From contig JAKSYS010000067.1 of NCBI GenBank assembly GCA_022925895.1, forward strand, positions 62,001-126,000: 64,000 bases of DNA, given 5' to 3'. Within the stretch, counting starts at the first letter, position 1. Each line of letters begins with the position of its first letter. This document shows positions 6,286-60,500 of the stretch, one piece after another. The position numbers and the translations under genes were made by a program. The stretch is from Fragilaria crotonensis. Taxonomy: Eukaryota; Bacillariophyta; Fragilariophyceae; Fragilariales; Fragilariaceae. The notes below the pieces were generated by a model. That model worked only from the letters and a program-made list of their open reading frames with translations, had not been told where the DNA came from and searched no databases.

Positions 6286-7257
6286 TGATGGTTCCCTAGG
6301 CCTTGGAAGCCAATGGGAGAGACGGGGCGATAGACGCCGTTGGACTTGGGAAGCCTGCGAGCGCGGCGTCGCTGCTGGCGAAGCGGAGCGTCGAGGTAGG
6401 CGTCGTTGACATCGCAGTGGTTGATCCTTGGCCCTTCCTCTTGCGTCGACAAATCCGATGGCGAGCGGGATGTGTTACGGAGCTTGGGGCAAGGTTCAGT
6501 TGGCCCATGGACGATTGTATCGTTGCAGTGGCGGCAGGTCCAGTGAGTTGATCGCGGAATGGAGCGCTTGAGCGAGTCGACACGCTGAAGGAGAGTTGCA
6601 ACCTTGGAGTGAAGGTCGTTCAACTGCACTTGCTGCTGTTGTTCAACCAACGTTGGTGCATTCCTCCGAATGTAGCGTCCCATGGATCGCAAGTTAATGG
6701 GGTACCTGCGATGCAGTCCATGGGAGCGAATACTTCCGGCTTGGGGAACATTCGCGCGTCGTGTGACCTTGCGATTGTGTTGCTTGAGAGCACGACGATG
6801 GCGGCGAGAAGGTAGCTCCTTAGGATCAGGCTCAGGCGATGTTGAGCTGGGCTTAGGAAGCCAGAACAGTACGACCATGGCCAGTAAGGCCCAAAGCAAT
6901 GGAGCAATGAGCGCCTCCTGGTGAGCCTCCAAAAATTGCGAGACGTGCGGGCGAACGACCATGACATGCGCTCGAAGGATTGCCATGACTTGGCTCCAAT
7001 CGACGGCGTTAAAATGCGCCATGGCGAGTTGAATAATTTCCAGCGTGGAGGTCCACATAGTTTTTGCAAACGGGACTGAAAATATTGCCATCACGTAGGT
7101 GAGCAGTAGAACGAGTACGGGAAGGATCCGGGTCACCATGGTGCGCAGGATAAAGAGCGCGTCAGTCACACTTGGGACGACCTCAATTTCCGTGGTCCAC
7201 ACCGGATCGAAGGCAAGGGAGACATTGTTGATTGCAGAACCAACACCTTGAGGGCCC

Positions 7258-8544
7258 TCAGAGCTCTTCTTGACGCCAGTGTGTTGCCGTTGCGTGCGTA
7301 GTGGTCCAACGCTTGCAGCTTGCGCACCAGTTGAAAGCCTTTCCGTTGGCTTGCTTGACTTGAGGTGCTCCAGATGGAGGAGGAGTAGACTTCCAGGACT
7401 TGACATCCTTTGGTCTTTCATTGCCATTCCCATTCCTGCCCTTGCCCTTGTTGTTCTCTGGGCATTCGCGCGACCAGTGTCCAGGCTTGTTGCACTTGTG
7501 ACAGACTCCTTTCTTGGCAAGTCCAGCACCATTGTTGGAGGCCTTGGACTGGATGAGGTTGAGTACCTCAGCTCTGGTGATTGGAGTCGCCATGTTTCCG
7601 AATGCAGCTGGTGGAGCCTTGGAGTCGCGAGTGTGACGTGCAGGTGGCCACTCCTTCCTGTCAAAGAGCGTCCTGTAGGCATCCTCTGCGTGAGCGCAGA
7701 TGTCCTTGTAGGTCAGCTTGTTGACTTGCATGTGAAGGTTGGCAGCTTCCTTGTCCTTGAATCCAATGTCCAAAAGAGCTTGCTCCAAGTTCTGCTTGAC
7801 AGATCTCAGGGGGAAGCGGAAGTCCTCATTGCCAGAACCACCAGCCAAAAGAAAGATCTTGAGCATGGCCAGAGTGAGGTTGTGGTCATACTGGCCAGCA
7901 GTTGTCAACTCATTTGCATCCTTGCGAAAGTGAGCTGCCAATTGTTCAAGGTTCTCTCCAGAGTACTGACTTGGGAGCCTGGCCTTGATGATGGTCTTGA
8001 GATCTTCAAACCTCTCAATGGAGGTGGACTGGATGGACTTGAGGAACTGGAGCCAAACAACTGGGAAGGAGTCAGAATCATCCAACTTCTCAGTCACCTT
8101 ATTGCTTAGCTCAGTAGAGAGTGAAGCAAGCAAATAGGTCCTGGCTGCCATATCGTTGGTCCGGTCATACTTGTCGTAGCGTTGAACTTGAGCTTCCGCC
8201 AACAACTTTGCCGACTGGACCGTGTACCTGGCGTGAGCCTTGATAACGTTAGTCATCTTGGCGTCGTCAGTTGGGTCCCTGAGGTAAGCAATGGAGTCCA
8301 TCCCGGTGTCCTTGAGATGATCCCAGACAACATTCTGGAAGCTGATCAAATCATCACTTGGCTTGAAGGAGATCTTGTGCCCAGTTCTCCTGAAGTTGTA
8401 GCCTTTCTGGGCTGCAGAAACATAGACAGGGCGGAGCTGGTTGGGAGAGGTGTGCTCTAGGAGAGCAATGGAGCCATCCAAACCTGTCCAGGTGTGGTTG
8501 GGCTTTCCACCTGTCCAAGCAGACCATTCATCCTTGGTCACCAA
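7258..8544 (-). pseudogene. gag region of Copia element 1
   Basis: Gag-like part of 428 residues. The N-terminal two thirds are a helical capsid-type domain. Near residue 345 there is a CCHC zinc knuckle (CHKCNKPGHWSREC), then a basic, Gly/Asn/Lys-rich stretch and a second short Cys/His segment. It lies just inside the 5' LTR, as expected for gag. Confidence 0.85.
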
Positions 8545-9062
8545 AGTGATTCCCCAATGAGGGGAACAAGAGGCTTGAGCTTGAAGGAGCTGGGAGCTCC
8601 ACTGGGGCAGTCATTGAGTTGGGAACTCCAAGACAGACTCTTCATCAGTAGCAAGAGTCCTGGCTTGAGCGATTGCCTCGGTGAGGCGAACGTCGACAGG
8701 ATCGGAGATCTCGAATCCTTCTGGATTGCCGCGGCCTTCGACAGCAGTCCCGAGGATTCCAACAACAGGTTCGTCTGGAAGATTCGTCGGGGACGAGCCT
8801 TCAGATGGTGGAACCGACATGATGATTGGAGTCTTGGCTTGGAAAGCAGATCTTCAACCACTCAACAGATTGCTGACTGCGTACTCGAGTTGGCAGAGAG
8901 CAATGAATCAGCCTAGTCTTGGGAAGACGTGGGGCTGTCGCAGGATCGCCGGAGGAGACCTGCCTTGACGCGAGCGTGACTTCCTTGAAAGGAACTTGAA
9001 ACGAGCTTGCCGGAGAGGAAAGTGCGTTAGAGGGTAAGTCTTATTATTGGGCTAAAATAACC

Positions 9063-13097: not shown

Positions 13098-13685
13098 TTA
13101 GTTGGGAATGAGAGAGACTCCGAGTTGTTCGTGAACCATAAGGGCGAGGATTCCCATCTGGGCAGCACGTCCTTGGTTCAATTCGATGGCACGCTTGTTC
13201 AGCTTGGTTTCGGCGTCAAACGAATCCCAGCCGAAGTCAAGGGCACCGTTACGGAAGTCACCGACGAATTCACCTCCAGTGATGTCCTTCATGACCGCAA
13301 GCTCGAGGAAGCCAATGAAGGCAATAATCTGCGCAAGGCCAGCAGCAGGGATGGCATTGATAGCGGCAAATCCATTAGGGATGGACTCGAAGCTGGTGCC
13401 AGAGAAGTCGATGTCTCCCGGAAGACGAATTCCGCTCTCGGCCACGAGGTAACCGACAACGGCAAGCATGGAGATGCGGCCATGCTTGATTTCGACGTAT
13501 CGGAGACGGTCGAACTTCTCTTGGTCACCGTCAGCGACGAGGCCAAGAGGATCGAAGAATCCAAGTGGATCCTGGGCACCGAGTTCGCCCTCGAAGGAGT
13601 TCAGGGCGGTGACCTTGGAAGCAGACTTAGCTGGAGCGAAGGCGGCAGCGGAAGCGAGGAGGGAGGCGACAATGATGCACTTCAT
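13098..13685 (-). CDS. fucoxanthin-chlorophyll a/c-binding protein (Lhcf type)
   Basis: A light-harvesting antenna protein of 195 aa that binds chlorophyll a/c and fucoxanthin in the thylakoid membrane. The N-terminus is a bipartite presequence: a signal peptide (MKCIIVASLLASA) ending in the AAAFAP motif, whose Phe directs import into a plastid of red-algal secondary origin. The mature part has three membrane helices. Helix 1 contains the chlorophyll-ligand motif VEIKHGRISML (about residues 64-75). A middle helix lies in GLAQIIAFIGFLELAVM, and helix 3 contains ELNQGRAAQMGILALMVHE. Length, spacing and the LGFFDPLGLVADG leader are typical of diatom major Lhcf proteins. This gene is the main evidence for a diatom source. 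Codon use is strongly biased to C-ending codons, as in highly expressed genes. Confidence 0.96.
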   Translation of the reverse strand: MKCIIVASLLASAAAFAPAKSASKVTALNSFEGELGAQDPLGFFDPLGLVADGDQEKFDRLRYVEIKHGRISMLAVVGYLVAESGIRLPGDIDFSGTSFESIPNGFAAINAIPAAGLAQIIAFIGFLELAVMKDITGGEFVGDFRNGALDFGWDSFDAETKLNKRAIELNQGRAAQMGILALMVHEQLGVSLIPN

Positions 13686-16539
13686 TTTGATGTTATGGAT
13701 TTAACAAATTGTGAGCAGAGGAACGTAGTTGCCTATCAAGATGTACTTCCGGGTGCGTAAGCAACGTGGCGTACTGTCAGAAAACAGCAGATGCGAATTG
13801 GGTTCAGGGCACATTCCCTCCTACGCTTACGATGGCTACTAATGATTCTGTCGAGTCTACATAAAACAACCCGGACGTTTGGAACCCACTGGCTTCAAGT
13901 TCCGGGTGCCCGTGACATTGGATCTGAGCAAACGTTGCACTTATGAATGGTAGTATCTATTAGGAATTAGGAGGCATGACGTGTAGTAACAGTACCGACC
14001 GTCCCGCATCAATGCCGAATCTGTCAACTTGAACCTGATCCCTTATACCAGGTACTATACCCTTGTACCACGAACTACTGATAGAGTTTGTTAACAGGAC
14101 ACCTGCGACACGGAACAGTATGGTACTAGTACCACACAATGCACAAGTTTACGTCCGAGTAGCAGTACATACACGTACAACACAAGTATGCATATTTTTT
14201 TGAGTCTGTTTTGTAGTTCCGGTACTCAGTACACTACTCCCTGGTACTGTAGTAGTAGGAAACAAGCACTGTCTTGTTTGTATAGTACTACAGTACGGAG
14301 TATTGCGTGATTGCTTGTTATATGCATGATGGCAAAAACCATCTCCTCGCGGTGAGGGTTAGATTTTAGGTTTTCCAATGAAAAACCTACTACCACTAAA
14401 ACCAAAATCAATCTTTAGTTCACGACGTCCTTCATAGTCACGTAGTACTATGTGGGATGATCACGGATCTCAATTGTCCAAGCCCTTTTTTGCCTTGCGA
14501 AAGGCATGACATACACTACTCAGATGCACAACTGCCTATTCATTTTCTTGTGGTGATGTTCTCTGATGCAAGAATCATTCTATGAAACAGCTCTTTTCAA
14601 TTTCCTTGTCTAGGATCAGCCATCAGTAAATTTCTGGCAAAAGTATGGCACTGCATCCTCCTGATGCTCTGGCCCATTGGAGTTGATGGTATCAGTTGGA
14701 TTCACAGGATTTGTCAATGTTATCAATAACATCATCCTCATTCATTTCCATCATTGAATTGTGCTGCTCAATGTTGTTGTTAGCACTACAGCAGTGCGGG
14801 AAAGAAATAGGGGTCACACTTGAATAACAAAAAGCAAAAACCTAGATTCGACGTAATAAAGCTAGAAAAAGCTACCGATCACGCCAGCCCTCTTTGCATG
14901 ATGTTGTAAATGTATTCAGAACACAACAGTGCTAGGTACTAGGTACTTGTACTCCAACTTCTGACGTGTCTTCGAATACTATCTATTGGAGTTACCACTG
15001 TCCGTGCATATTTCTGTTAGCTTGCCTAGCTCGACTACGGTACCATCGCCCACCCCGAACCGTAATGCGATACTTTCGCGTGGTCGCGTCACTACAGTAC
15101 ACTACTCAGTAACCCAGACAAATTGACTACTTGTACTAGATAAAGTCTTAAAGTGGAGTGCCTTTCTGGTCTCCTCCCGCTCACAACTTTATACTTAGCA
15201 TTTCATTGCCTCAATTGCGCTCTTGCCGGTCTCAGCAGATCGTAAGGGTCATGTCGTCTCCAAACACTCCATTGCTGCTCTTGCCGGTCTCAGCAGATCG
15301 TAAGGGTCATGTCGTCTCCAAACACTCCATTGCTGCATCAAAGGCAAACTTGTCCTGTTGCTTGTGAAACGCCTTGGCTCGCTAGTGTGTACATTGTTCC
15401 GAACCAACGGCGACGACGAGGGTGCCCGGCCGCTGTTTTGCAACTAAATCTGCTCCCCAGTGAGCGTGGTAACAAGGTAGGGCCTTGGAAGGTTTGGACT
15501 CTCAGTTTCTCCAGAACAGTATTTCTCAAGTATGCGGAGTGCATACGTTTTGTTGACGTACCATAGTGACGCATGGTTATATGAAGATGGTGTACACAGA
15601 GTACTGGCTGCCTCGACACTGGCAAGCAGCAGCTCAGGATTGCACTCCAGTATCCAGTTCCAATCAATATTGTTGACAGGCTGACTGAACCTTTCAAAAT
15701 GTTGATTGATGAGCAAGAATAAAACTACAGTATGACTCTGAGAGCATGTGATTGTCATCATTTTGACAAAATGAAATGATGTATACAGGTTAGCCTCTTC
15801 TGGGAACATTTCTCATTACTATCCTGCATATAACCTGATTTGGCACCCTCTCAATGTTTGGAGCAAAGGATTAGGTATATGAATTGAAAGACTTTGGTGG
15901 CTAATGATGTCCCCATAGGGGTTTACTCCACAGCCTCACAACAAAGGTGACGAGAAAAATCAGTCGCTGAGTTAACTAAGCACTAATCCCTCTTGCTCCT
16001 CCTGCAACCATCATAGATCCAAAGATGGAAGCTGACAGGTTGAGAAAAGCAACCATCTTTATTCTCCAAATCAATAATTTGCTCCAAGCAACCAAGGTTT
16101 TGTGGTATGTGGCTGGTAGTTGCATGTTTCCAAGTACCTTTCAAGGCATGCATACTAAGTCTCGTCCTAGAAGCAAGAAGCAAGAGCATCACAGGGTGCT
16201 GAGAAAGGGCATGCAAAAAAAGGTTTATGGAGAAACAAATGCAAAATTATCATGGGCAATGTCATCAGTTTTCCCAAAACTAGCTACAAAGAGAGGCACT
16301 GGATATCATTAAGCATACAAGAAGGCAAAAGATTGTTGGGTCAACCTACATGAGCACACTGTCATATATCAATATGGATCACACTCTAACATATGAAGGA
16401 GTTGGGTGACAAAGCATACTGCCAATGGACATACAAGGCAATTGGAGAATAGTCACAGTGTATGTAACAGAAACTGAATAAGGTGATATTTTGCTGAAAC
16501 AATTGGCTGTCTTAGCAAATCTTAGCAAATGGAAAACCA
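13686..16539. other. gene-poor, repeat-rich interval
   Basis: No convincing gene. 14040-14300 is rich in GTAC/AGTACT words. A 58 bp tandem duplication lies at 15219-15334. From about 15.9 to 16.5 kb there are short, stop-broken frames that look like an old element I cannot place. The upstream region of Lhcf (13686-13900) must hold its promoter, but no core element is clear. Confidence 0.5.
15219..15334. repeat. 58 bp direct tandem duplication
   Basis: Two adjacent near-identical 58 bp units (period measured from TTGCCGGT at 15223 and 15281). They share CAGCAGATCGTAAGGGTCAT and CTCCAAACACTCCATTGCT. The high identity indicates a recent slippage or duplication event. Confidence 0.8.
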
Positions 16540-26820: not shown

Positions 26821-29001
26821 ATGCGCTTTCACACTCTTCTATGCGTATTGCTCCCATTACTCTCAGTCCACGGAGACAGCAGTTGTACACTGGAGTGTCG
26901 TCAAGAAGCCCCATGCTTCCGTGGAAATGCGAACTTTTCGGATCACCCAACGTATCAAGATGGCACGCCTTTGCCGTTTCAGGTGCCTCTGCAATCAAAC
27001 GGAATGCACTGTGCCTGTCCTCACGGGTGGACTGGAGTAACATGCAATCGAATCTTCGAATCCTGTAATGGAGATCACAAGTGTTATAATGGAGGAAATG
27101 TAAGTGAAACTTGCGCAAGGGCCAAAATGAGCATCGACAAATTGGCTCTGGTGTCGGTCTCGTGACCCTATGAGTGTCAAGACCATTGTGTCCAACATCC
27201 GCTCATTGTCTTAAATCTACTAAAATTGCAGTGCATCCCTGGTCTTTTGGATTACTATGACAATGAACAACTCTTTTGCGATTGCTCGGATGCACTTGAT
27301 GAAAATGGTAATCCGTACGTCGGAAAATTCTGCGAGATTCAAAGCAAGGAAAACTGTGGAACAGAAGAGGATGACCTCTTTTGCGTCAACGGGGGCGAAT
27401 GTAATCCTAACTACGCCAGCGGAGGATCTTTCTGTGATTGTCCCTCTGGCTTTGAGGGACCTCACTGTGAATTCGAACAAGGTTCTATGCCACAATGTAC
27501 CTTGGACTGTCAGAATCAAGGAGAATGCCAATTTGGCTTGCCACCCACGACTGCGGAGGTTCATGACTTGGACGGATTATACCTGACTGCCGATGGAACT
27601 GCTGAGGATTCCATGCACTGCGTATGTCCTCCTTCGTTTGGTGGAAAATTCTGTGATATCGAAATTGAGCCTTGTGGGTCACAGGAGTGCTATCATGGCG
27701 GAACTTGTATTACTCGGGAGAATACAGGTATGTTAAAGCAGCCTTGAAAACAACGCAGGGTATTGTGACTCTTCCTTTTTCTCACTTGCTGTATTCATTC
27801 AGATGGAGTCGTCGAGTACCGATGTGATTGTACAACAGCGACCTACGACGGGAAGAGTTACGCGGGACGCTATTGCCAATTCCCATCGACAGTTTTCTGT
27901 ACTGAGGACCAGACCGAGAATGGAAAATTATTCTGTGTTAACGGTGGAACTTGCCGAGAGAACGCCATTGAGGGTTGTAATTGTACGAGTGGTTACTACG
28001 GTGACAGCTGTGAGTATATGCACCGTCCACAGGATTTTTCCCCCTCGGCATCCCCAGAAAACGTCAGCGCTGGACCTGTTAGCCCGAATGACCCGGTGCC
28101 TGCACCAACAGAAGCAGCAGGCCCTCCTGCACCGACGGCTTATCTTGACACTTCAGCTCCAGTGGACGCATTAGAACATCTAGATGTATGCCAATTGGAA
28201 TGCTTGAATGATGGCATATGCCGAAAGGGCGTCAAGGACCTTGGAATCATTACAGACATTGCTCAAAATGTTGAAGAACTGAACCAGACATCGAATGCGG
28301 ATTTCGAGCACTGTGTTTGCCCTTCTGGCTTTGTAGGCCTTCGTTGTGAGCATAAGGTTGAAATCTGTCCCGGAGGGGAGCACGTGTGCTTACACGGCTC
28401 CACCTGCGTAGCAAACGGAAATGAACAGTCGTGCGACTGTACTACGTCCACGTTTACCCTCGCCGGTTCGTCTTGTGAACATAAGAGTTTTGTCTCGTGC
28501 AATCAGGACGAGTTAGGGACCGCACAACCGCGAAGCTTCTGTGTGAACGGGGGTATCTGCAAAACTTTGGTGAGTGAAACGGAGGCACACCCTGGGTGTG
28601 AGTGTCCCGACCAGCATTGGGAAGGTCCTCATTGCGAACTGCATAAGGCAACTGTCGAGAGCACTGTTGATACTGAAACAGCAGCCAAAGTATCCGATCC
28701 TTCACCGGATGCCACCTCAAGTCCGTCCGAGCTTAACAATGGAGTCTCAATGGGAGTTCTCGTTGTTGGAATTCTCGCCCTGGTTGCCTCGTTGGTGGTC
28801 ATGGTGCACACCCATGTTCGCAATAAGAAGGAGAGACGCCGGATGGAACAAGAGCGGAAGTTAACATTGGCTTTGGCAACACACCGTGAACTTGAAGTGA
28901 ATAAGGGCGTGCAGAATTTTGCGGTTGGGGAGCCTGAAGTCTACCTAGGACCACCTCGCGATGAAGATGGGCATGAACTGCATCAGATCGAGATCCTTTA
29001 G
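26821..29001 (+). CDS. nine-EGF type I membrane protein A
   Basis: The first of three paralogues. Three exons were inferred (26821-27099, 27232-27727, 27803-29001; GT-AG, frame kept), giving 657 aa. A signal peptide (MRFHTLLCVLLPLLSVHG) is followed by nine EGF-like domains in three triplets. Each triplet begins with a CxLxC segment (CTLECR, CTLDCQNQGEC, CQLECLNDGIC), continues with a CxxHGxxC domain, and ends with FCVNGGxC...CxCPxGFxGPxCE. A Pro/Ser/Thr-rich stalk lies before triplet 3. One membrane helix (about 573-596, GVLVVGILALVASLVVMV) has a basic stop-transfer NKKERRR and a 60-residue tail that ends RDEDGHELHQIEIL. The domain layout points to cell-surface binding or adhesion, but the ligand is unknown. 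It is convergent with gene B (137 bp between stop codons). No catalytic domain is seen. Confidence 0.85.
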
Positions 29002-29138
29002 TACGGTTGTTAGTAGACTTTACAATTTTATACGGTTGCATATGCTCTCATCGTTAAGGCCGATGTGTACTGTAGCTTGGTCGAATCGTTACCAAACCCG
29101 TTACGAGCCTTCGAAGTTAGAACCGTCCAGACGTTCCT

Positions 29139-31083
29139 TTAAACAATCTCTACATTGACGAGTTCGGTCCCGTCTTGGTCGCGTTCAGGTCCAAAGTCTA
29201 GCACGGGCTCGTCGTCTGGATTGTCCAGCATGCTGTGTAAGGTCGAATGGGTTGGGGCTGCGGCGCACATATTGGCATCCCTCAGGACGAATTCCTTGTC
29301 CCTTTCATCTCGCTGTTTGATTCTTCGTCGAACATACACTGCACCAGCCAAAACGACGACGATAACAGCAACTACGGAGAAGAATATTTTGATGCCCTCT
29401 GTACTAGTCGGGCGATCGTAGCCTGCTTCGGAAACGTTGTTCCCAATTGAACCTTCTGGAAGTTCACAACTTTCACCTTCGAACCCTTTGGGACATATGC
29501 ATCCAGTATGACCATCGCCTTGAGCAATGCTCTTACATTTCCCGCCATTCGTACAAAAGGAAGATGCACCAGGCATGTTGTCCGGCGTACAGTAAACGCT
29601 GGCTTCGTGCTGACAGTAGTCGCCAGCGAATCGCTTGTCATTGCCACCAACGTCGTCGCAGTTGCAGGACCACCCATTATTTGCCTCACTGACGCACTTG
29701 CCGCCATTCATGCACACGTATTCGCCACTTCCGCACATTTCGATGGTTTTATCACATGTCAATCCGAAGTAGCCTTGTGCGCAGATGCAGTGTTCAAAGT
29801 TCTCATCGTGCTCAGGGTCCTTGACCTGAGACACCGCGGGCCCAATGTCGTCCAAAAATGTGACATCCTTAACTCCTTTTGTACATACACCGCCATTGTC
29901 ACATGTGAGCTTACAGTCAGGTTCGCCTCCTTGGACTAGAACATTGTATTCACACATGGGGCCTTCAAAACCAGCTGGGCAGTCACAACCTGGTTTTCCA
30001 ACTTTGCAGGTTCCGCCATTGACGCAAAAGTCTCTCCCTTCAATAGCGTCGCTGGATTCGCAAAAAACATTTGACTTGTATTGACAGAATTTTCCAGCAA
30101 ACGACTCATTGGCTGAGTGGGCGGTTGTGCAATCGCAGTGAAAGCTTTCCCCCGCGTCGTCGATCGTGGTAGTGACACACTAAATAGTGTGGCAGGTGTG
30201 TTAGGTCAGGCATGGTCACGAAGAAAGTCGACGAATGAGAAGACTTACAGTAGCACCGTTGAAACAGTGATGATCGCCGCATGCTTGAGCCGAAATCTCA
30301 CACCTTAAACCAAAGAAACCTCGTGGGCATTGGCAATACATGGCTTCTTCCTGGTTGTTCCAGAAGTCGTTGTAGCCGAGCTCAGCCATCGCATAGTTCT
30401 TAATCCCCAGGACACACTTGCCCCCATTCATGCACGACAAATCGCAATCTGGAACCTGGTCCTTGACAAATTCGCAATGTGGGCCTTCATATCCACTACT
30501 GCATTGACAGAAATCAACATCGGACGTTGTGGCAGTCGCGCTGCAGGTACCGTTGTTGACGCAGAACTTTCGACCATCCGTGTCACAGGCCACAACTGCT
30601 TTGAGTTCGCAGTACTTTCCGACAAAGTGTTGTCCATCGGCATCCACGGCATCGGAGCAATCACAAAAGTATTGTTCCGTACCGTATACATCCTTGAGGC
30701 CTGGAATGCATTTACCTCCATTGTAACACGAATGGTCAGTGTCGTAACATGATTCGTGTTGATGGCCGCATCTGAATTCGAAAGATCAATGCCTTGTGAG
30801 CTTTGGTACCAGAATAGCGGGTCGAGACATCGTCTACTACTACAAAGAAACGAGACGCAACTTACCGTAAACCAGACCAACCGGTTTGACATTGGCAATG
30901 TAGCCCTTTGCCGTCCTTGCCATAACGACACAACTCGACATTCCCAAGAGAGGCGTCTCCGTCGCAATGGTCGCACACGGAGTCATGCATACATTCAAAG
31001 TTGCAGGTGGCAGCATCTTGTGCTGTTACTATGCCAAAGAATGGCAGTAATACGAAGAGATTCGAAATCGTTAATGCTGTCAT
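29139..31083 (-). CDS. nine-EGF type I membrane protein B
   Basis: The second paralogue. Three exons were inferred (31083-30866, 30771-30249, 30179-29139), giving 593 aa. The signal peptide is MTALTISNLFVLLPFFGIVTA. It has the same three EGF triplets as A and C: CNFECMHDSVC, CDLSCMNGGKC and CKLTCDNGGVC open each triplet, and FEGPHCE/FEGESCE-type ends close them. A membrane helix (FFSVVAVIVVVLAGAVYV, about 510-528) is followed by RRRIKQRDERDKE and a 63-residue tail ending ERDQDGTELVNVEIV, clearly related to the tail of A. An in-frame ATG upstream lies inside the LTR of Copia element 2, so I chose the ATG at 31083, which gives a clean signal peptide. The retroelement ends only 38 bp before this start codon and must have displaced the native promoter. 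Confidence 0.85.
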
Positions 31084-31121
31084 GGTCACAAATCGGTGTA
31101 TTTGTACAATAAGAAAGGATG

Positions 31122-31446
31122 TGTTGGAAATATGCAATCTGACCCCATCGCTACCGTCGACTCAAGTAACGGTACGGTGGCAAAGGCGAATGGAGAAACT
31201 GATGTCTGTCCACAAACTCACGTCACGTGGGCTGACGTAGTAAAAAGGAAACGCGTCACCAAAGCAATCAATCAAAACCACATGAGTTTCAAGAGTCGCA
31301 TTCTCTTGAAATAATCCAGTTAGTAAGCTTCAGAGTTTGATTGACTCTTCTCCGTTTGTTATCAATAGTTTCGGACACACTGCGTCTTCTTCACCGCGTT
31401 GGGTTTAGGGCCTGTATCGCCACGCAGTAGGGTTCACTCTACAACA
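31122..31446 (+). repeat. 5' LTR of Copia element 2
   Basis: 325 bp, TG...CA ends, one mismatch to 36882-37206. It sits 38 bp from the start codon of EGF gene B, on the opposite strand. Confidence 0.93.
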
Positions 31447-32038
31447 TTATTTCAAGAGAAAAAGGTTTTTTACTACGTATGGAGGATTCTCGCATCGACG
31501 ATCTAATCGCTGAACTACACGCGTTGCGGATTCAAGTCGCTCGTCTGGAGGCTGAAGTTCATCGCCGCGAGCAGAGATAATCCTCCTCCTACTACCCCTT
31601 CGGCAGTAGTCCCTCCGCGAACTCCCGAGTACGCCGTGGGCGACAGGGTGCGCATACTTAACAAGATCAAGAAGCCTGCCACTTGGAATAACAGCATTGT
31701 GTGGAGTGAGTCTTCCGCGCGACTAGCAACAGTCACCCAGGTCAGGGCCACACAGATATTCTTCACAACGGACAACGGCGTGGAGACGTGGAGGGCCCCT
31801 AACAACCTTCGCAAACTCTGATCGGAATCATGAGTAGCTCCATCATTGGCTCGACTGTGACCACAGGCGCTGACGCTTCCGGGCGTGGGAGAGGACAGGA
31901 AGGATCCTCCGCAGCGGATCCGGAGGCCGAGGTCGAAATGGAGGACGGGGGGGACGAAACAACCGCCCCAACAGGACGAGGTCAAATCCCACCGGAAGGA
32001 GTGGACGGGCATCTGGTTTCAAGGGCAACACCGAAGGA

Positions 32039-33060
32039 ATGAACGGGCATGTGTTCGAGTGCTATTTTGAGCAGGGCGATAAGCGCCAATACGCTCGCAC
32101 CGTTGAAGCACTCGAGGGATACGCGAAGAAGAACTTAAAGTTCTCCGAGGATTTTGCCTCCTTGTTTGCTTTTGAAGCATCGGAGCCTGTCATCGAGAAG
32201 CCATCGGATCTTGAACCTGGGTACTCCACTACGGACGAGATGATCTGGAAGGAGGAAATCAAGGCCTACGTAAATCGACTGGGAGTACTCAGGGGAAACC
32301 TTGCCGCAATTTTTGCTGTTGCCCTGGGACAGTGCAGCGAGGCCATGAAGGCCAAACTCAAGTCATTGAAGGAGTTCGAAGCTCGCAGTAAGAAAAATGA
32401 CTGCCACTGGCTTCTCAAGAACATACTCTCGATTACTCTTCAATTCGACCAGAAGCGAAACGGGTACCTTGCCATCATGGACGCCCATCAGAACTTCTTA
32501 AACTGCAAGCAGACCCAGGAGCAGACGACCGAGGAATACCTTGAAAATCTCACACTGTGGGCCGACACCATCGAATACCATGGAGGAACCTTTGTGGAGA
32601 ACTACCACCTGGCCGGGGCCCACACTGCGGACGGCACTCTTCGCACGGAGGACGAACGGAAGAGCGCAGCCAGAGATGAAACGCTCGCCATGGCTCTCAT
32701 CAGGGGCGCAGACCCTTCGCGATTCGGCACCCTCATCGCCGAGTTATCTAACCAGTACGCTCGGGGAAGGAACGAGTACCCGACTGATTTGAACTCCGCC
32801 TACAGCCTCCTCGTGAACTACCGCACGCCGGCAAACACGAGACCCAGGAACAGCACCGGAAACAACGACAACGCCACCAACCAGCGAGCAAACCAGACCT
32901 CCCCGGCAGCCGAAGAGAGCGCTATGACGTTCACTCAGCAGAGCAATGCCGCCGCAGGGGGCCAGGGAGCCAACAACAGCATTCAGTCATCGACGGATCC
33001 CAACACGGCTGTAACCGCTGCTCCAAACTCCTCTGCCGTGTCCGTCAACACCGGTACGAC
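32039..33060 (+). pseudogene. gag region of Copia element 2
   Basis: Helical Gag-type domain with the Copia/UBN2-like pattern (LKNILSITLQFDQ, then TTEEYLENLTLWADTIEYHGG), followed by an Asn/Thr/Gln-rich linker. No CCHC zinc knuckle is seen. Confidence 0.75.
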
Positions 33061-36000
33061 ACTCGTGCAGTATGCTGTAATGATGGCGCAGTCCAACACC
33101 CAGTCTATTGACCCCAATTGGGTGCTCCTTGACTCTCAGTCTACCATCTCCGTCTTCCGGAACAAGAACATGCTGCGCAATATTCGTCACAGTCCACACG
33201 TCCTGCGTGCCATTACAAACGGGGGCTATCAGGATTCGCACATGGTCGGAGACTTCCCAAACCTTGGCCCCGTGTGGTATAACGAAGACTCCATCGCAAA
33301 CATTCTTTCGCTGTCGGAAGTTAGGCGGGTGTGCACGGTGACCATGGACACGTCCAAGGAACCCGCCATGAATGTCCACCGCAAGGACGGCACTATCATG
33401 AGTTTTATTGAACACCCCTCGGGTTTGTATGTCTACAGCGGTAATGACGTGACTAGTGATGCTGTTAATGCGTACACGTTACTCAATACTGTGGCTGAGC
33501 ACAAAAAGGTGTTCTCGCAACGACAAATCGCAGCTGCCGACGCCGCCCGCGCTCTGTACAGAAAAATCGGACGCCCCGATGAATCTGAATTCCAGTCGAT
33601 CCTGCGTAAGAACCTCATCCGGAACTGTCCTGTCACCCCGGATGACGCGAGCCGTGCGCTTCTTATTTACGGACCCGATGTCGCGGTGTTAAAAGGAAAG
33701 ATGACACGCTCGCAAGCATCCCCACGCGCACCGACTTTCGACGCTGTCCCCATTCCGCCTCCAATACTGGAGCACCAACGCAACGTTACCCTGTGCGTGG
33801 ATTTCTTTTTTGTCCAAGGTATCGGTTTCCTGCACACCATCTCGCGCGGGATCGGTTTCCGCACCGTCGCCCATGTCGCGGATCGTTCGCACAAGACCAT
33901 CTTAAAGGAACTTTCCACCGTCATCAGCGTCTACGAGGCTCGGGGTCTCGTCATCCGGGATATCCATGCCGATAATGAATTCGAGTGTATACGAAATGAC
34001 GTTCGACCAATTGCTCTCAACATTGTCCCTGCGGACAGTCACGTTGGAGAAGTGGAGCGCTCTATCCGAACAATCAAGGATCGTCTCAGGTCGGCGGTCC
34101 ATGGCCTTCCGTTCAAACGCCTCCCGAAAATAATGATTCGGCATCTCGTTTCTGATGCCGTACGGTGTCTCAACCAGTTTCCCCGTAAGAACGGTGTCTC
34201 CGACACCATGAGTCCCGCTACCATTGTGGTGGGCGTCGGCACGCCCGATTTCACAGCCATGCGGATTGAGTTTGGGGCCTATGCCCAAGTATTCGAGGAA
34301 TTTGACCCAACCAACACCCGCGTGCGCGTTCGCTGGGCGCCATCGCTCTTACCCCTACTGGCAATGCTCAGGGGGACTACTATTTCATGTCGCTGGCCAC
34401 TGGTGCCCGCATCTCGCGCCACCGCTGGACGGAACTTCCGATCCCCGACACCGCCATTGCCCGCGTCGAAGCCCTGGCCATCTCTGACGGTCAACCTCTT
34501 ATCCAAGCAACCGGTTTTGTCGTCGAGTGGCGTCCTGACCACCTATTGACGACGATGAGTACGACTTCGATTTTCAGCCATCGCCTGACCATGCCGCTGA
34601 CGACAACCTTGATATCGATTATGATCCCATCGACGCCGACGAACTTGCCGCCCTCGCCGTCCCTGACTACGATCCCACACCGCTCCCGCTGGTCCAGGAC
34701 CGAGGAGCGAACGAGGCTGCCGGCGAGGTCGACGAGTATGCAGAAGACCCGGAGGATACAACAGACGAGAACTACGAGGACTACACCGGCGACGAGGACG
34801 AGGATTACACCGGCGACGAGGACGAGGATTACACCGGCGACGAGGACGAGGATTACACCGGAGACCATCCCGATGATCCGGTCGACAACACAGTGGCGGA
34901 ACAGGTTGTTGAACCCCGCCTAAATCAAGGAGCGGATGAGACCGTGGAACCTACGGTTCAACCAGAAGTGATCGAACCCCGTTTAAATCAAGGAGCGGAC
35001 GAGATCGCTGAGGCCCAAAACGTTATTAACGTTCCGAATCCCACGAGCCATCCGTATAATTTACGTCGTCGGGGTACGCCACCTACTGATTTCAGAGCCG
35101 CCATCGATGAACCCCACGACAACAAGTCCTATTTCCCTCCACGTCACCAGATGCATCAAGTCGGCCACATCAAGATCCGAGATCCTCATCGTTTTGCGTT
35201 CGACTATGTATTCGCACACATGAGTGCCCTTCTCTTCACGCAAATGAGCGCAAAGGCTGCGATCAAGAAACACGGGAAAGCTGCAGAGGCCGCCCTCATG
35301 AGAGAATTTGGGCAAATGGAAGATTTGGACGTATACGAACCGATCCATGCAAGGACTCTAAGCAAGGAACAAAGAAAGGGTGCCCTGAGGGCCCTTCCAC
35401 TCGTCGCGGAAAAGCGCTGCGGAACTTTGAAAGGCAGGACTGTAGCGGACGGGCGACCACAACGCAATTTATATGACAAGTCCGAAACAGCGTCACCCAC
35501 TGTCTCAAACGACGGCTTAACGCTCACCATTGTTGCGGATGCTTATGAGGCAAGAGACGTCGGAACTGCGGATGTTGCGGGCGCCTACTTAAAGGCCTAT
35601 ATGAAAGATTTCGTGATCATGAAATTCACTGGAGAAATGGTTGATATCCTTTGCAAGATGAATCCCAAGTACATTGACTACGTGGTGCTGGAAGGGGGTG
35701 TACGAACCCTTTACGTGCGCCTCATAAAGGCCCTCTATGGGTGCGTGCAATCCGCACTTCTCTGGTATGAGCTTTTCAGCGAGACCCTGCAAAAGATGGG
35801 TTTCGTGTTGAATCCCTACGACCGGTGCGTCGCAAACTGCGACATAAATGGGAAACAGTGCACAATCGCTTGGTACGTGGACGATACCAAGATATCACAC
35901 GTGGATCCGGAAGTTGTGACTATGATAATCAACAAATTGGAGGCTGCGTTTGGTAAAATGACTGTCACCCGAGGCTCGTCGCATGTGTTTCTTGGAATGA

Positions 36001-36866
36001 ACATTGAGTATAACAAATCTGAGCGAACAGCGAAAATCACGATGAAAGACTATTTGAAAGAGGCCATCATAGAATCGGGTTTAGCGATCAACAGGACAGC
36101 GTCCACACCAGCAAGCAAGGAACTGTTTGAGGTGGATGACACTTCTCCTGCATTACCGAAGCGGTACGGGGACGTTTTCCACAGCGTTGTGGCCAAGTTA
36201 TTGTACGTTTCCATACGCGCACGGATGGACCTACTCTTGTCCACCAGTTTCCTCACCACCAGAGTATCGCGAAGCACACGACAAGACATGGGCAAGTTGA
36301 AGAGGCTATTGGAATATGTTAACGGTACTATCGATTTGGAGTATATCGTCGGTGCAGACGACCTGGGACGCATGCGCACCTGGGTTGACGCAGCATACGC
36401 CGTACATGCCGACATGCGCAGCCATACTGGCGGAGTTATCTCATTCGGCAGGGGCGGCATAGCTTGTAAGTCTAGCAAACAAAAACTCAACACCAAAAGC
36501 TCCACCGAGGCAGAGTTCGTGGGTGCAAGCGACTACCTCCCAAACACCATCTGGGTGAAAATGTTTATGGAAGCACAAGGGTACAACATTACCGAAAATA
36601 TCCTCGAGCAGGATAACGAGAGCGCCATAAAGCTCGAAAAGAACGGGCGCACTTCGGCAGGACCAAAATCCAGACACATCAACATCAGGTACTTCTGGTT
36701 GAAGGATCGGCTGAAGTCGGAAAACATCACCGTCCGACATTGTCCAACTTTGCAAATGCTGGCGGATTTTTTTCACCAAGCCCCTACAAGGAAATCTTTT
36801 CCGACGTTTCCGCGACGTCGTCCTTGGACGTTGCCACACCGAAACCCTCACCTCCGTCAGCGATGA
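33061..36866 (+). pseudogene. pol region of Copia element 2 (PR-IN-RT-RH)
   Basis: A protease-like segment around WVLLDSQSTISVF, an integrase core (DFFF, then DNEFECI), and a very acidic linker with YTGDEDED repeats. It then has a reverse transcriptase with DVAGAYLKA and WYVDDTKISH, and RNase H with TWVDAAYAV, KSSTEAEFVGA, and the terminal MLADFF. The lineage is clearly different from that of element 1. It appears interrupted and is listed as a fossil. Confidence 0.82.
34770..34862 (+). repeat. 24 bp tandem repeat in the Copia 2 linker
   Basis: More than three copies of a 24 bp unit (GACGAGGATTACACCGGCGA core) in the linker between integrase and reverse transcriptase. In one frame it reads as YTGDEDED repeats. 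Confidence 0.8.
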
Positions 36867-36881
36867 GCCATTTGAGGAGCG

Positions 36882-37206
36882 TGTTGGAAATATGCAAGCT
36901 GACCCCATCGCTACCGTCGACTCAAGTAACGGTACGGTGGCAAAGGCGAATGGAGAAACTGATGTCTGTCCACAAACTCACGTCACGTGGGCTGACGTAG
37001 TAAAAAGGAAACGCGTCACCAAAGCAATCAATCAAAACCACATGAGTTTCAAGAGTCGCATTCTCTTGAAATAATCCAGTTAGTAAGCTTCAGAGTTTGA
37101 TTGACTCTTCTCCGTTTGTTATCAATAGTTTCGGACACACTGCGTCTTCTTCACCGCGTTGGGTTTAGGGCCTGTATCGCCACGCAGTAGGGTTCACTCT
37201 ACAACA
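36882..37206 (+). repeat. 3' LTR of Copia element 2
   Basis: 325 bp, one mismatch to the 5' LTR. The right flank does not repeat the 5 bp left of the 5' LTR. Confidence 0.93.
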
Positions 37207-38117
37207 GTATATGATGACGGAGGTGATGAGACGACGTCTGTTGCTCCCAGGCTCCCAGGTTGCGATTTGCGAGTTTCGAAAGGCCGATGGCCAGTCACGT
37301 TCACAATATACATACTCATATACGAATATTTGCATAAAAGTATGACTACAGGTTTACGATCTGTCGAATCAAAACGCAGCGTACATACGGAGTATCAAAA
37401 TGCAAACACATCCCACAAATTTTAAATACATGACACTCCGATTACTATGCGCATGACACTTTTAAGATTTTATGCGTGGTCCAAGTTTATTATCGTAATG
37501 CTACGTACATTTTCATGTGCTAAAGGGAAGGTCCGGCAAATGACGGTTTCGAAGTTTAGCAAACCCACTACAAATTCCACATTCGTCCCACCTAGTTAAA
37601 AAATCCTGAAGTGTACAGTGTACAGTACGCTGTACGGTTCCTCTGTTCTCTCTCCTCTCTCAATCAGGTGCTATGGGAAGTCAACCTGCCGTCTTTGCCG
37701 AAGAGAAGAGAGGCATACACACTCTGCAGATCATGCTCTGCATTTTTCCTACATCGTCCTCAGTGCATGCACCAATTATTCCGATAGAGTTTTGGTGATT
37801 TGTATGATCTTCATGAATCTGTGTAATGGACTTAGGGAGTTGCAGACGTAGGAGCCATGATCTGCGGTGAGGTGTCTGGGGATATGTACCTTTGGTACCT
37901 GGTAGAAATGATTGCGGGCGAAAGTTTTCGAAAATAGTCTCCGATTACAAAGGTAAATCAGAGCGAGTGAGACATGGAGCTAGCCTTGCTGATGATGTGC
38001 CTAAGGAGCGGTAGCCGATAGCGATTTCAAAAATCATCAATATCAAATACAATAGAACGCTTTAGTATAGTCAAGGTTCTTTCCTGTGGCCCGTCCGCGA
38101 AGGTGACGATGATCCCA
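37207..38117. other. intergenic between Copia element 2 and EGF gene C
   Basis: About 900 bp, AT-rich, without a conserved frame. It lies downstream of gene C (which reads leftwards) and holds no visible repeat or RNA gene. Confidence 0.5.
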
Positions 38118-40108
38118 TTACAGAATTTCCACGTTGGAGAAAACATGATCATGGTACGAAGTCGTTGGACGGATGGGACTGTCCATATCGGGAATGTCAG
38201 GGTCGCGCAAAAAGTCTCGGTATCGTCGAGTTTTCGTATTCGGCAGGGGAATTATGAACTGATTTGTTTCTTGTACTTCTCGTAGAGCATCTTCAATATT
38301 GCGAGACTTACGCCGGGTATGACGGCGGTACATGATGGCAACTACCAAGGTGCACGCAATTACCAAAACTATAATGCCAATTGCACCTCCCGCCGAAAGA
38401 CCACTTTTCGCTGCCGTGTTGTTAGTTGTTGAGACGTCGGAATTTTGTTCAGCGTTGACTGGTGTCTTCCCCACAGGTATGCCAATTCCATCGTCTCCAT
38501 CATCGCCGTCCTTTTCTGGGTCGCCAGCGACCTGGTCTCGCTTGAGAAATTCACAATGTTGTCCGTAATATGCTTCTGGGCATTCACATCCTGGTTGTCT
38601 GCGGAAATGAAATGGGTGAGTGACGCCAAATATCTCGGCTACAGTCGAATATAAACGATTCCAACTTACTCTTTGCCATCTTGTCCGATGATGTCCACGC
38701 ATTCCCCCTTGTTCACGCAGAACGAAAATCCAGAAGAACTACTCCCCCCTGAAGTGCAGATGCTAGTTGATTTGTGCTGGCAGTAAGTTCCTGCCAGCAT
38801 GACGAATGAAGTCGAACCCGTTTCACAATTGCACGCAGAACCGATTCCATCCGATTGATCGGGGATGCAAGTGGATCCGTGCAAGCAGACATGTTCGGCG
38901 TCCTCGCAAACTTCTATTTTGGTCTCGCACCTTAAACCGGCGAAACCATCCGGGCAAACACAATGCTCGAAATTGGAGTCGTGGGATACGCTTACATTGG
39001 ACAAATCATTGCCAAATTTGTCGAGCAGGGATGTATCCTTTGCTCCATTGCGGCATTGTCCGTTGTTTTCACAAACCAAGGTGCAATTTTCGTATTCGTT
39101 GACTTGGGTGGCATCCTTGAACTCGCAAATGGGACCATGAAACCCAGACGGGCATTCACAACCGAGTTGAGATGCGTCTGAATGACACACGCCATCATTG
39201 ACGCAGAAAAGTTGGCCATTGGCCGTGTTCTGTTTGTCACAAAAGTTGTCGGATTCGAACTGGCAAAACTCTCCAGCGTAGGCGAAACCATCGCCCACTG
39301 CCTTGGTGCAGTCGCAGTAATGCATGCGCTGACCGTCTTGCGTGACAGTCACACACTCTCCACCGTGAAAGCAGTGATGATCTCCACATTTGCTGCTCTG
39401 AACTTCACATTGAAGCCCGTAGTACCCGCTAGCGCACTCACAGTATTGGTAGTCTGAATGTTTTTTCCAGAAGTCATAATCGATCTCTCCCTTGTCTGAA
39501 GCGTCTTTCTTTATGCCAAGCCTGCATGAACCCCCATTATGACACTTCAAAGTACACTGAGGGATTGCTCCTGCGTCGAACTCACAATGAGGTCCATCAT
39601 GCAGTGTACCACAGTGGCAAGGACGACGTGGATAGGAAGCATAGTCAGACTTGCACCAGCCACCGTTCACACAGAAGACCTCTCCAGCATCATCGCAAGT
39701 TTGAGTCTTGGGGATCTCGCAATACTTTCCGACGTACTTCACACCATGCTCGTCAACTGCTTCGGAACAGTCGCAGTAGAGTTGATCGTTGCCGTAGATA
39801 TCACTAAGTCCCAATATGCACTGTCCGCCATTATAACACATGTGGTCAGAATCGGTACAGTCTTCGTACTTGATTCCACACAATAGTCCAGTGTATCCTG
39901 GACGACAATGGCAGTGATACCCATTCCGTTTTGTTTCAATGAGAAATGTCAATGCCGTGCCGTTGGCCAGGGTAGGATGTGCCGAGAAGTCGGCGGCGCC
40001 TGCCTCGCAATATCCATTGTGAAAACAATCCAAGCCGCAAGTTGGCGACATGATCGAGCCAGCTGCCACGCAGGCAAGGAGAAGGAGCAGAATCAATCTC
40101 ATCGTCAT
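38118..40108 (-). CDS. nine-EGF type I membrane protein C
   Basis: The third paralogue. Two exons were inferred (40108-38670 and 38598-38118; 71 bp GT-AG intron), giving 639 aa. The signal peptide is MRLILLLLLACVAAGS (a second Met two codons in is an equally good start). It has three EGF triplets as in A and B: triplet openers are CGLDCFHNGYC, CTLKCHNGGSC and CTLVCENNGQC, and the middle domains contain CGDHHCFHGGEC. A Gly/Asp-rich stalk precedes one membrane helix (AIGIIVLVIACTLVVAIMY, about 548-568). A basic YRRHTRRKS and a tail of about 70 residues end in HVFSNVEIL. The single intron lies within the last EGF domain, a position not used in A or B. The function is unknown, and surface recognition or adhesion is the natural guess. 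Confidence 0.85.
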
Positions 40109-57506: not shown

Positions 57507-57577
57507 CTATCAACCCAACCCTGACAAGTGCCTTCTTAATACAGTTTAAAATCAATCTGACGAAATTGGGTTGATAG
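57507..57577 (+). repeat. hairpin-forming inverted repeat ahead of the transposase
   Basis: Perfect 11 bp arms CTATCAACCCA (57507-57517) and TGGGTTGATAG (57567-57577), 49 bp apart, immediately before the likely start codon at 57583. Confidence 0.6.
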
Positions 57578-57582
57578 TCAAG

Positions 57583-60500
57583 ATGGCTGACCAAGGCATT
57601 TATACAATTTTTGTGAACGCTGTTATGTTGATTCGCGCCGATCCTTTGTACGGACCTCGAATGTCAAACTGCTGGCTCCCAGCGGCGACATGGGTAGAAG
57701 CACTTCGAAGAACGGGACATATTGATGCTGCAATCGTCATTGACGTTCGGAAGTTTAATACGGCAATGTCCAAGGCTACAACATTTGGATCTGTCATGTC
57801 GAGATTCGATGGGTCAAACCAGAGCGGAGTCTTCCGAGTCAATTACAATCATCAACACTTCTACTATATAACAAATGAAACGAGACAGGTAAGCTATCCA
57901 AATCCGCTGAATAAGGCCTGGAAGGAAAGAGTGCTGGAAACGGCATCAAATGCACTTGTCATTCCGTCGACAAGGGCAAGACCTGGTGCTGGTACTCTCC
58001 TCGTAAATCATGTCGACACAACTGAATCCACCAATGGGAATGACGGTGCTGAAGCGATAGAAGAACAGCCATCACCACAGAAACGCCCAAGATTAGAGCA
58101 GAGGGAGGAGGGCACCGCACTTATATCATATTGGCCTGATAGCCCTGAAGCACGTCAGCTCTTTCGTCCAAGAAGGACGACGACGACGAGAGCATCGACA
58201 GCAGCTGCTGTTACTGACAACGACGCCGACGTGGCGACGCTATGCATCAATGAAACTGCACAAGAGGCAGTGAGGCGAAGAATTAGACTGCTTCAATCTG
58301 TGCATGACAGTGAGGACGGCTGGAGAAACATTTTAATAGGCAGGGACGAGGATAACTTCTGCAGCAAGGTTGAGATTTTTGAGATTCGGCAGCGGGCAAC
58401 CTTTCTTTGTTGCGCGTACCAGATAGCCTTGACAGATATGAACGAGAGAACTTGGCATGATTGTTGCAGACAGGCTTGCAAGTTTCTGAATAGCCTCGGA
58501 CTCCGCCAAGCAACATTCTTCAAGACCGTCGCAAATTGGAACAAGTTGTTCCGGCAATTTGATGGTTTTCCACACCCCAACCCGTATGTCCAATGTGGAA
58601 AGCGTCCACTCCCACGGTTGCTTGAACTTTTTCCCGATGCCAAGGACCAGATTGTCTCCTTTGGCATCAAGAACTTAGCAACACTAACTATAGAGAGTGT
58701 TCACGATTTCCTTGTGACATCAGTCATTCCAAGGCTAGCAAAAAACTGGCGGAGCGAAAATGGGGTGACTGCAAGTACTACTGACACTACATGCGATGCT
58801 GCTGGCGATGAACTTCCTGATGACAATACCACCACACCAATCCATTCATTCTTGCATGCTCACAGACTGGAGTCCGTAGGTTTGACTACAACTTGGCGGT
58901 GGATGCGCTGTCTCGGTTTTAAGTATGATTTAAGAAAAAAGAGCTTCTATGTTGACGGCCATGAACGTGATGATGTGGTTGCCAATCGGCGAACGTTCTG
59001 CAAACGTTATCTAACAGTACACGAGCCCTATTGTAAACGCTGGGTACAAGTATCGGTTGATAAAGCAAAGGCAATGAAAAATATTAATCTGGCATTTGGT
59101 TATTCGTATCATGACATAATCGGAAATGAGGACAGGATTGAGTTCCACATTGACTATTGGAATCAAGCAACAAACATCGGCAGCACCGACCGTGAGGACA
59201 CCGACCACAATATAACACCAACAAAAAGCATTCGCGTTTCTTCGCAGGCACGCCCTTTGATGATAATTGGCCAAGACGAGAGTGTCTTCGCTCAATACTT
59301 GCTTGGAAGCAAGACATGGGTAGGGCCAAAAGGACAACGCCCGTTACTCCCGAAGTCCGAAGGCGACGGCTATATGCTTTCTGCCTTTGTTTCACGAGAG
59401 TTCGGCTTCGGACGAGAGATGACAGCAGCCGAGTTAGCGAAGGTCAATGATGAAAGGCGAGGAACACACAAGACATACCTTGACACTCTGGCTGCCACCG
59501 AGATTTTGAAGACCACCCAAAAACCGCTCTTAACTGAATCGCCATTTGTTAAGTATCTATATATTGGAGCCAACAATGAAGGTTATTGGAACAGCTATCA
59601 CATGAGCTTGCAATTCGAAGATGTGGTGGATTGTTTGCAGGTTTTATACTGGAATACGATTTCGTATTCTTGTTCGATCACAGCCAGGGTCACGCACGGA
59701 AGCGATGCGGAGCGCTGAGTGCTTTTCATATGTCGCGAGCCTACGGAGGGCACAGCCAACAATGAGAGACACAACGATTGAACAAGCAGAGGGTTATCTT
59801 GGTGTGCACTCACCAAAACTGAATGTTGGCGACACTCAGTCCATGGTTTTCCAACCACAAGATTCTGGCCCATGGTACCTCTCTCCCTCAGCAAAGAGAA
59901 GCGCAAAGACATGATCAGGCAACAGGAAGAGCAGGCGTGTTGAACGGTCAAAGAAACTCTTAATTAAAGCTCTGTCTGAAGCTGGAGTTGAGATGCCAGA
60001 ACAACGGGGCTATACAAGGAAAGAGCTGCAAACGTTTGCAAGACGTCACGGGATTGACTTGTTCGAGGAGAAACAAGGAGTCATTCCAGGGTGGCAAGGA
60101 AAGCCTAAAGGTCTTCTGCAAGTCCTTTGGGAGAGGGGGTTGATTTCGGAGGGTTCATTAGCGAAGTATACATTGGATGGGCGCAAGGATGCAATATCGC
60201 AACAAGTTGACTTACAATACTCGCTTCGGCATCTCATGTCTGAGTGCATCGATTTCAAGAATGAGGAAACAGCCCTCCAACATTTGGGAACTCAACTTGG
60301 AGTCAGTGTTGAGCTGACGCCAAAGTTTCATGCAGAACTTGCCGGTGAAGGCGTTGAATATAGCTGGGCGCAGGCGAAGTCGTTCTACCGACGAGTTCCA
60401 GTGTCCCGAAAGCGAGGGCGAGAAAACTTCAAAGAACTTGTACGAGAATGCACATGCCCTGTGAATGTTCTGAGCAGAGTGAGAATAGAAAATTTGCTGC

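Follow-up and report, generated by a model that had tools for sequence, protein, structure and literature searches.

A 64,000-nucleotide stretch of DNA from the diatom Fragilaria crotonensis (the window) contains three paralogous genes, A, B, and C, that encode candidate type I membrane proteins with nine EGF-like domains each. The cluster occupies positions 26821-40108, and both ends are exact: 26821 is the first base of the gene A ATG, and 40108 is the first base of the gene C ATG. A and B converge, with their coding ends 137 bases apart, and a retroelement lies in the 7 kb that separate B from C. The spliced translations correspond to the following gene models.

Gene A, 26821..29001, plus strand: exons 26821-27099, 27232-27727, and 27803-29001; 657 amino acids
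Gene B, 29139..31083, minus strand: exons 31083-30866, 30771-30249, and 30179-29139; 593 amino acids
Gene C, 38118..40108, minus strand: exons 40108-38670 and 38598-38118; 639 amino acids

An earlier note, made from the letters alone, had proposed these three paralogues, spliced by hand, and given the coordinates of the cluster. Re-splicing returns the same picture, with all three reading frames open throughout. All five introns are of the GT..AG type and measure 132, 75, 94, 69, and 71 nucleotides (A intron 1, 27100-27231; A intron 2, 27728-27802; B intron 1, 30865-30772; B intron 2, 30248-30180; C intron, 38669-38599). When the three proteins are aligned, neither of the other two paralogues has an intron at any of the five joins, and the alignment has gaps of one to two residues near A intron 2 and the C intron. 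Because no intron sits at a position common to another paralogue, this comparison supports the five joins and the gene models built on them. The five introns, none position-shared among three old paralogues, would have been gained or lost after duplication, or lost from the other copies. A tblastn search of the window with A, B, and C (E up to 1) recovered the three loci and one weak match at 9565 (E 0.062), and no fourth gene or pseudogene.

Domain classes, linkers and membrane layout

The proteins contain 55 (A), 57 (B), and 56 (C) cysteines, of which 54 in each fall into nine blocks of six once a few others are set aside. A has one such extra cysteine, within the signal peptide, and C has two, one each in the signal peptide and the membrane helix; of the three in B, the long loop of EGF 1 holds two and the tail the third. 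In B EGF 1, the six array cysteines were the analysts' choice from eight. With the two extra cysteines of B EGF 1 excluded, all 27 domains have six cysteines and a single residue between the fourth and fifth. Three domain classes, each with its own loop lengths, recur in the order 1-2-3 in A, B, and C. Their loops, in the order C1-C2, C2-C3, C3-C4, C4-C5, and C5-C6, have the following lengths in residues.

Class 1: 3, 5, 25-31, 1, 8
Class 2: 4-6, 5, 8-14, 1, 11-15
Class 3: 7-13, 5, 6-13, 1, 8-9

In a tree of the 27 domains, which draws on only 52 columns and leaves 11 of 24 inner branches open, a single branch sets each class apart from the rest (support 81/64, 89/89, and 96/90). The class splits appear in 82, 90, and 96% of 200 bootstrap trees, and for each class 0 of 500 label shuffles were as low as observed. 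The nine EGF-like domains in three triplets of one order, as first described, are therefore borne out by the cysteine blocks and by three tree-supported classes. The class motifs given with that description are a fair consensus, matched exactly in only part of the domains. CxLxC occurs in eight of nine class-1 domains and the exact HCxCPxGFxGLxC in two; among the nine class-2 domains, CGxHxCxxGxxC is exact in two and AGxxC occurs in six; among the nine class-3 domains, five carry FCVNGGxC and six GPxCE.

The triplets lie at these positions.

A triplet 1 (EGF 1-3), 26881..27474, plus strand: intron 1 inside; placed by cysteine pattern
A triplet 2 (EGF 4-6), 27493..28017, plus strand: intron 2 inside; placed by cysteine pattern
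A triplet 3 (EGF 7-9), 28186..28641, plus strand: begins 59 residues after the last cysteine of triplet 2; placed by cysteine pattern
B triplet 1, 30468..31008, minus strand: intron 1 inside, EGF 1 with extra C40 and C52; placed by cysteine pattern
B triplet 2, 29946..30449, minus strand: intron 2 inside; placed by cysteine pattern
B triplet 3, 29460..29918, minus strand: placed by cysteine pattern
C triplet 1, 39578..40042, minus strand: placed by cysteine pattern
C triplet 2, 39119..39559, minus strand: unit used for structure prediction
C triplet 3, 38547..39088, minus strand: intron inside EGF 9; placed by cysteine pattern

The linkers, counted from the last cysteine of one domain to the first cysteine of the next, follow a strict rule that is new here and adds to the earlier description. 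The class 1 to class 2 linker is six residues and the class 2 to class 3 linker is seven residues in nine of nine triplets, and the linker from triplet 1 to triplet 2 is nine residues in all three proteins. The linker from triplet 2 to triplet 3 varies, with 59 residues in A, 12 in B, and 13 in C; that of A appears by eye to be rich in Pro, Ala, Ser, and Thr. From the fixed linkers and this one variable linker, we infer that the domains of a triplet are held in register as a unit and that the first two triplets make up a single fixed arm, with a hinge ahead of triplet 3. The three cysteine classes and linkers of 6/7/9/6/7/n/6/7 residues together make a strict searchable signature that can be used on diatom genomes.

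The long loop of B EGF 1 (30866-31008) is shortened, at 25 residues, and holds the two extra cysteines, which A and C lack. An additional disulphide is possible in this domain.

Beyond the array, each protein has a stalk (38 amino acids in A, 26 in B, and 55 in C) and one strong hydrophobic peak near the C-terminus (2.89, 2.89, and 2.91).

A membrane helix (hydropathy core), 28750..28806, plus strand: followed by a 64-amino-acid tail ending EIL
B membrane helix, 29331..29387, minus strand: followed by a 63-amino-acid tail ending EIV
C membrane helix, 38331..38387, minus strand: followed by a 70-amino-acid tail ending EIL

The membrane layout proposed earlier stands as to the single helix, the stalk, and a tail of 63-70 amino acids. 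Its signal peptides are assigned by eye and by hydropathy, the N-terminal peak exceeding 1.6 for B and C but not for A. Each protein carries three to four sequons for putative N-glycosylation. The tails contain no kinase or other known domain at the Pfam cut-off, and the acidic-hydrophobic C-terminus suggests a role in sorting or trafficking or in contact with a scaffold.

Family matches, fold, and age of the cluster

EGF types are the only Pfam families that reach the cut-off, and they do so in A and B (31 and 58.9 bits with the Pfam EGF model); C is counted as a member of the EGF family because it is homologous to A and B. The domain search suggested in the earlier note thus gives EGF for two of the three spliced proteins directly and for the third by homology. 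The note's remark that the triplet is not a named family also holds within the databases searched: no named family for it was found in Pfam with A, B, and C, or in PHROGs and NCBIfam (E up to 0.01) with one exon each of B and C. Likewise, no description of a nine-EGF triplet family was found among the open-access listings and passages searched, the reach of the search ending at subscription papers and supplements.

A profile of the nine triplets matched 32 solved sequences, led by Delta-like 1 (5.5e-19) and Notch 1 (1.6e-15); neuregulin, urokinase, and other EGF proteins are among the same 32 with weaker matches. The structural prediction of one triplet, also suggested earlier, gives a fold that matches Notch-type EGF arrays. 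The model of C triplet 2 (147 amino acids, built from an alignment of 11 window stretches, 11 rows) has a mean pLDDT of 83.6 and a pTM of 0.65, with two short helices of lower confidence in the long class-1 loop. Its 11 solved matches (E up to 0.001) are all Notch or Notch-complex entries, the best at 9.3e-05, with 21-26% identity. Whole-chain TM-scores of these 11 best matches are 0.19-0.24, which means that the domain-to-domain path does not superpose on the Notch entries; in the model, this geometry either differs from Notch or is poorly predicted. A viral structure library returned no match (E up to 0.001).

Like A, B, and C, Notch and Delta/Jagged of animals are type I membrane proteins with EGF domains in tandem, and they provide the best sequence and fold matches. 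Notch receptors are marked by LNR, ankyrin, and calcium-binding EGF repeats, and Delta/Jagged ligands by a DSL domain. In contrast, the Pfam tables for A, B, and C (E up to 1) contain no DSL, LNR, or ankyrin family. The calcium motif [DN]x[DN][EQ] precedes the first cysteine in 0 of 27 domains, with one regular-expression match inside A EGF 8. The Delta-like/Jagged EGF model scores 10.5 bits in A and 12.2 bits in C against a cut-off of 27. Unlike Notch, the proteins have a higher-order repeat of three classes, and identity as a Notch receptor or as a Delta/Jagged ligand is rejected. The EGF region of teneurins (PF25024) matches weakly over adjoining EGF domains (8.8e-05, 0.00065, and 0.0016 in A, B, and C), and teneurin identity is also rejected, with 22.6, 19.8, and 18.5 bits for EGF_TEN against a cut-off of 65.

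Searches for relatives covered viral, prokaryote, phage, and plasmid collections, none of them a diatom collection. Scans of viral and prokaryote genome contigs, which are seeded with short peptide patterns and overlook distant relatives, confirmed no relative of A, B, or C, and tblastn with C exon 1 found no match in phages or plasmids.

Protein identity among the paralogues is 33-41%. Over the best stretch, C is 34% identical to A (E 4e-126) and 41% identical to B (E 2e-125), and the best between-gene alignments are collinear over the whole length. In a tree of the nine triplets, in which several branches are long, the triplet-1 copies from all three genes group together (100/99; as low in 9 of 500 shuffles), as do the triplet-3 copies (69/96; 7 of 500 shuffles as low). 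The triplet-2 copies form no resolved group (2 changes; 147 of 500 shuffles as low). Since triplet-1 and triplet-3 copies group across genes and the alignments are collinear, the array was most likely built before the genes split.

At codons for the same residue, third positions agree in 87/221, 100/232, and 84/231 cases (0.39, 0.43, and 0.36), about equal to the 0.39, 0.40, and 0.40 expected from codon usage. This saturation of synonymous sites indicates that the duplications are old and that the set has been kept side by side; a recent expansion of the cluster is ruled out. The earlier argument from local duplication to a fast-evolving set consequently falls, and neither evolutionary rate nor selection is readable from so saturated a cluster. 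Gene conversion between A and B where their 3′ ends face each other is not supported either, with third-position agreement of 6/16 in a 50-column window, near the overall 0.39. EGF 2 is identical at 30 of 47 positions in all three pairs, far above the 13/54 to 24/54 of EGF 1, so constraint is uneven along the array. Variability does not peak in the class-1 loops: between paralogues, the C3-C4 loops are identical at 74/274 positions in class 1, against 37/112 for class 2 and 17/95 for class 3.

Candidate role and alternatives

To our knowledge, few surface recognition proteins of diatoms are known, even though these cells encounter one another, attach, and pair. Arrays of EGF domains are common among surface proteins, and the 3 x 3 family is a variation on this plan. 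A, B, and C may be type I single-pass glycoproteins of surface adhesion or recognition with an EGF rod of modules in fixed register, a reading to which we give about even chances on sequence evidence. A signal peptide would direct each protein into the endoplasmic reticulum. The nine domains would extend as a rod of three modules of one plan, in which the linkers of six and seven residues would keep domains 1, 2, and 3 of each module in set register. The nine-residue linker would fuse modules 1 and 2 into a six-domain arm, and the variable hinge would set off module 3. The class-1 C3-C4 loop of 25-31 residues is the likeliest candidate binding site, by its size and not by variability. The stalk, single helix, and tail of 63-70 amino acids would anchor the protein, and the tail end -EI(L/V) of all three may direct trafficking or bind a scaffold. 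Most likely, the proteins would serve in cell-surface adhesion or recognition (cell-cell, cell-mucilage, or cell-wall), with binding partners of A, B, and C that would have parted long ago. The surface receptor or adhesin set of the earlier note would then be right in kind, since each protein crosses the membrane once, is of surface type, and carries the regular 3 x 3 array, but the fast expansion attached to it is not supported.

Several points weigh against this assignment. C falls below the Pfam EGF cut-off (17.5 versus 21.5 bits), and a single B exon alone matched one solved sequence only, a coagulation factor IX chain (0.00091). The full-length model of C exon 1 is poor (mean pLDDT 54.7), and because of this the proposed rod shape is drawn from the linkers. 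In the triplet model, the class-1 loop lies at lower confidence (blocks of 64-78), and the class-1 loops stand out by length, not by variability. The last 20 residues of the tails are alike at 10 of 20 positions between A and B and at 5 of 20 in each of A-C and B-C; the likeness of the tail ends thus belongs to A and B. Moreover, the array could act inside the secretory pathway or a silica vesicle instead of at the surface.

The latter setting defines one alternative, in which A, B, and C are membrane proteins of the silica vesicle or wall, the array lies inside the silica deposition vesicle and ties the membrane to the growing wall, and the tail contacts the cytoskeleton. The outline of signal peptide, lumenal part, one helix, and cytoplasmic part is that described for silicalemma-associated proteins (SAPs; PMC5647440). 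Resemblance beyond this general type I plan is found in A, where the tail has two RXL matches, TpSAP1 and 3 also having one beyond the conserved domain (PMC5647440), and where the 38-amino-acid stalk is 18.4% Ser. However, SAPs are described with an RXL site after the signal peptide and a Ser-rich lumenal region (PMC5647440), whereas none of A, B, and C has an N-terminal RXL, B and C have none anywhere, and ectodomain Ser is 7.4, 6.1, and 7.3% in A, B, and C. Cysteine-rich EGF arrays, which A, B, and C carry, are not among the SAP features given, and the word cysteine occurs 0 times in the available text of PMC5647440. SAP identity is rejected on the missing N-terminal RXL (three of three proteins) and ectodomain Ser of 6.1-7.4%, and a silica-vesicle or wall role in general is unlikely. 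Equally unlikely is a recognition set specific to mating, which sex pheromone would induce and which would act in pairing or gamete fusion. It draws on the Seminavis robusta gene Sro65_g036830, which the published account gives as an EGF-like transmembrane gene, pheromone-induced in both mating types, with potential orthologues in P. tricornutum and T. pseudonana (PMC8027222). This diatom gene, by its description, is the best published lead for A, B, and C, but it is described with "an EGF-like domain" and not with nine (PMC8027222). The term EGF is absent from the main text of the S. robusta genome paper (PMC7335047). Furthermore, the candidate mating receptors or adhesion molecules reported for Pseudo-nitzschia are LRR transmembrane proteins (PMC6261938), and the saturated paralogues show no sign of recent diversification, although fast change within each gene would still be compatible with them. 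The linker signature is also usable on published pheromone, bacterial, and attachment RNA-seq and would show whether the Seminavis gene belongs to the family.

Plant vacuolar sorting receptors are type I proteins with EGF repeats, a short tail, a protease-associated domain, and a tyrosine tail motif. A sorting or endocytic receptor of the secretory pathway akin to them would share the type I plan, the EGF repeats, and the similar tail end of A, B, and C; the C tail has one YxxPhi match (YRDF), and B matches Vps3844_C weakly, below the cut-off (15.3 versus 27 bits). However, YxxPhi is absent from the A and B tails, no dileucine occurs in any of the three, and the Pfam tables for A, B, and C contain no protease-associated domain. 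With that family missing and YxxPhi in one of three tails, a receptor of the plant type is rejected, and the wider sorting reading is decidedly improbable. Kinship with Sig1-type mastigoneme (flagellar hair) proteins is hardly credible. Sig1 is not known to have a membrane helix, and each of A, B, and C has both helix and tail. Sig1-3 of Thalassiosira weissflogii, extracellular proteins of a stramenopile, do carry EGF-like repeats as A, B, and C do, but the authors of the Seminavis pheromone paper detected no Sig orthologues in the pennate S. robusta (PMC8027222). The two groups are set apart here by description, not by sequence.

Within the adhesion or recognition reading, a bolder proposal takes the 3 x 3 array as a recognition scaffold of diatoms with an architecture of its own, one fixed-register EGF module in three copies. 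Six domains at rigid spacing would offer their long class-1 loops as paralogue-specific binding faces, and the proteins would be ancient surface receptors for identity or partners, in mating or attachment, common to diatoms. This proposal is rather improbable, and our estimate for it was lowered a little because the class-1 loops are no more variable than other loops.

Genomic surroundings

By its gene content, the window appears diatom-like. A fucoxanthin-chlorophyll antenna gene lies at 13098-13700, with FCP proteins as its best solved relatives, and of ten further large frames examined, nine match Pfam families that belong to ordinary eukaryotic genes. The following element separates B from C.

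Long terminal repeat (LTR) retroelement, 31122..37206, plus strand: between B and C and outside the EGF family; copia-type reverse transcriptase (RVT_2)

Its LTRs, 31122-31446 and 36882-37206, are identical over 325 bases (TGTTG...CAACA), so the element is a recent arrival. The flanks are without a matching target duplication (GGATG on the left, GTATA on the right), which hints at recombination between elements. The left edge lies 38 nucleotides from the B ATG (31083-31122); at this distance, the LTR would have cut off the former upstream region of B, and B may be driven or silenced by it.

Two further features lie outside the cluster. At 57550-59718, a 722-amino-acid open frame with no Pfam match at E up to 1e-4 looks transposase-like by eye. 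A second copia-type element, on the minus strand at 2622-8610, has overlapping open frames, with RVT_2 and gag_pre-integrs in the two frames scanned.

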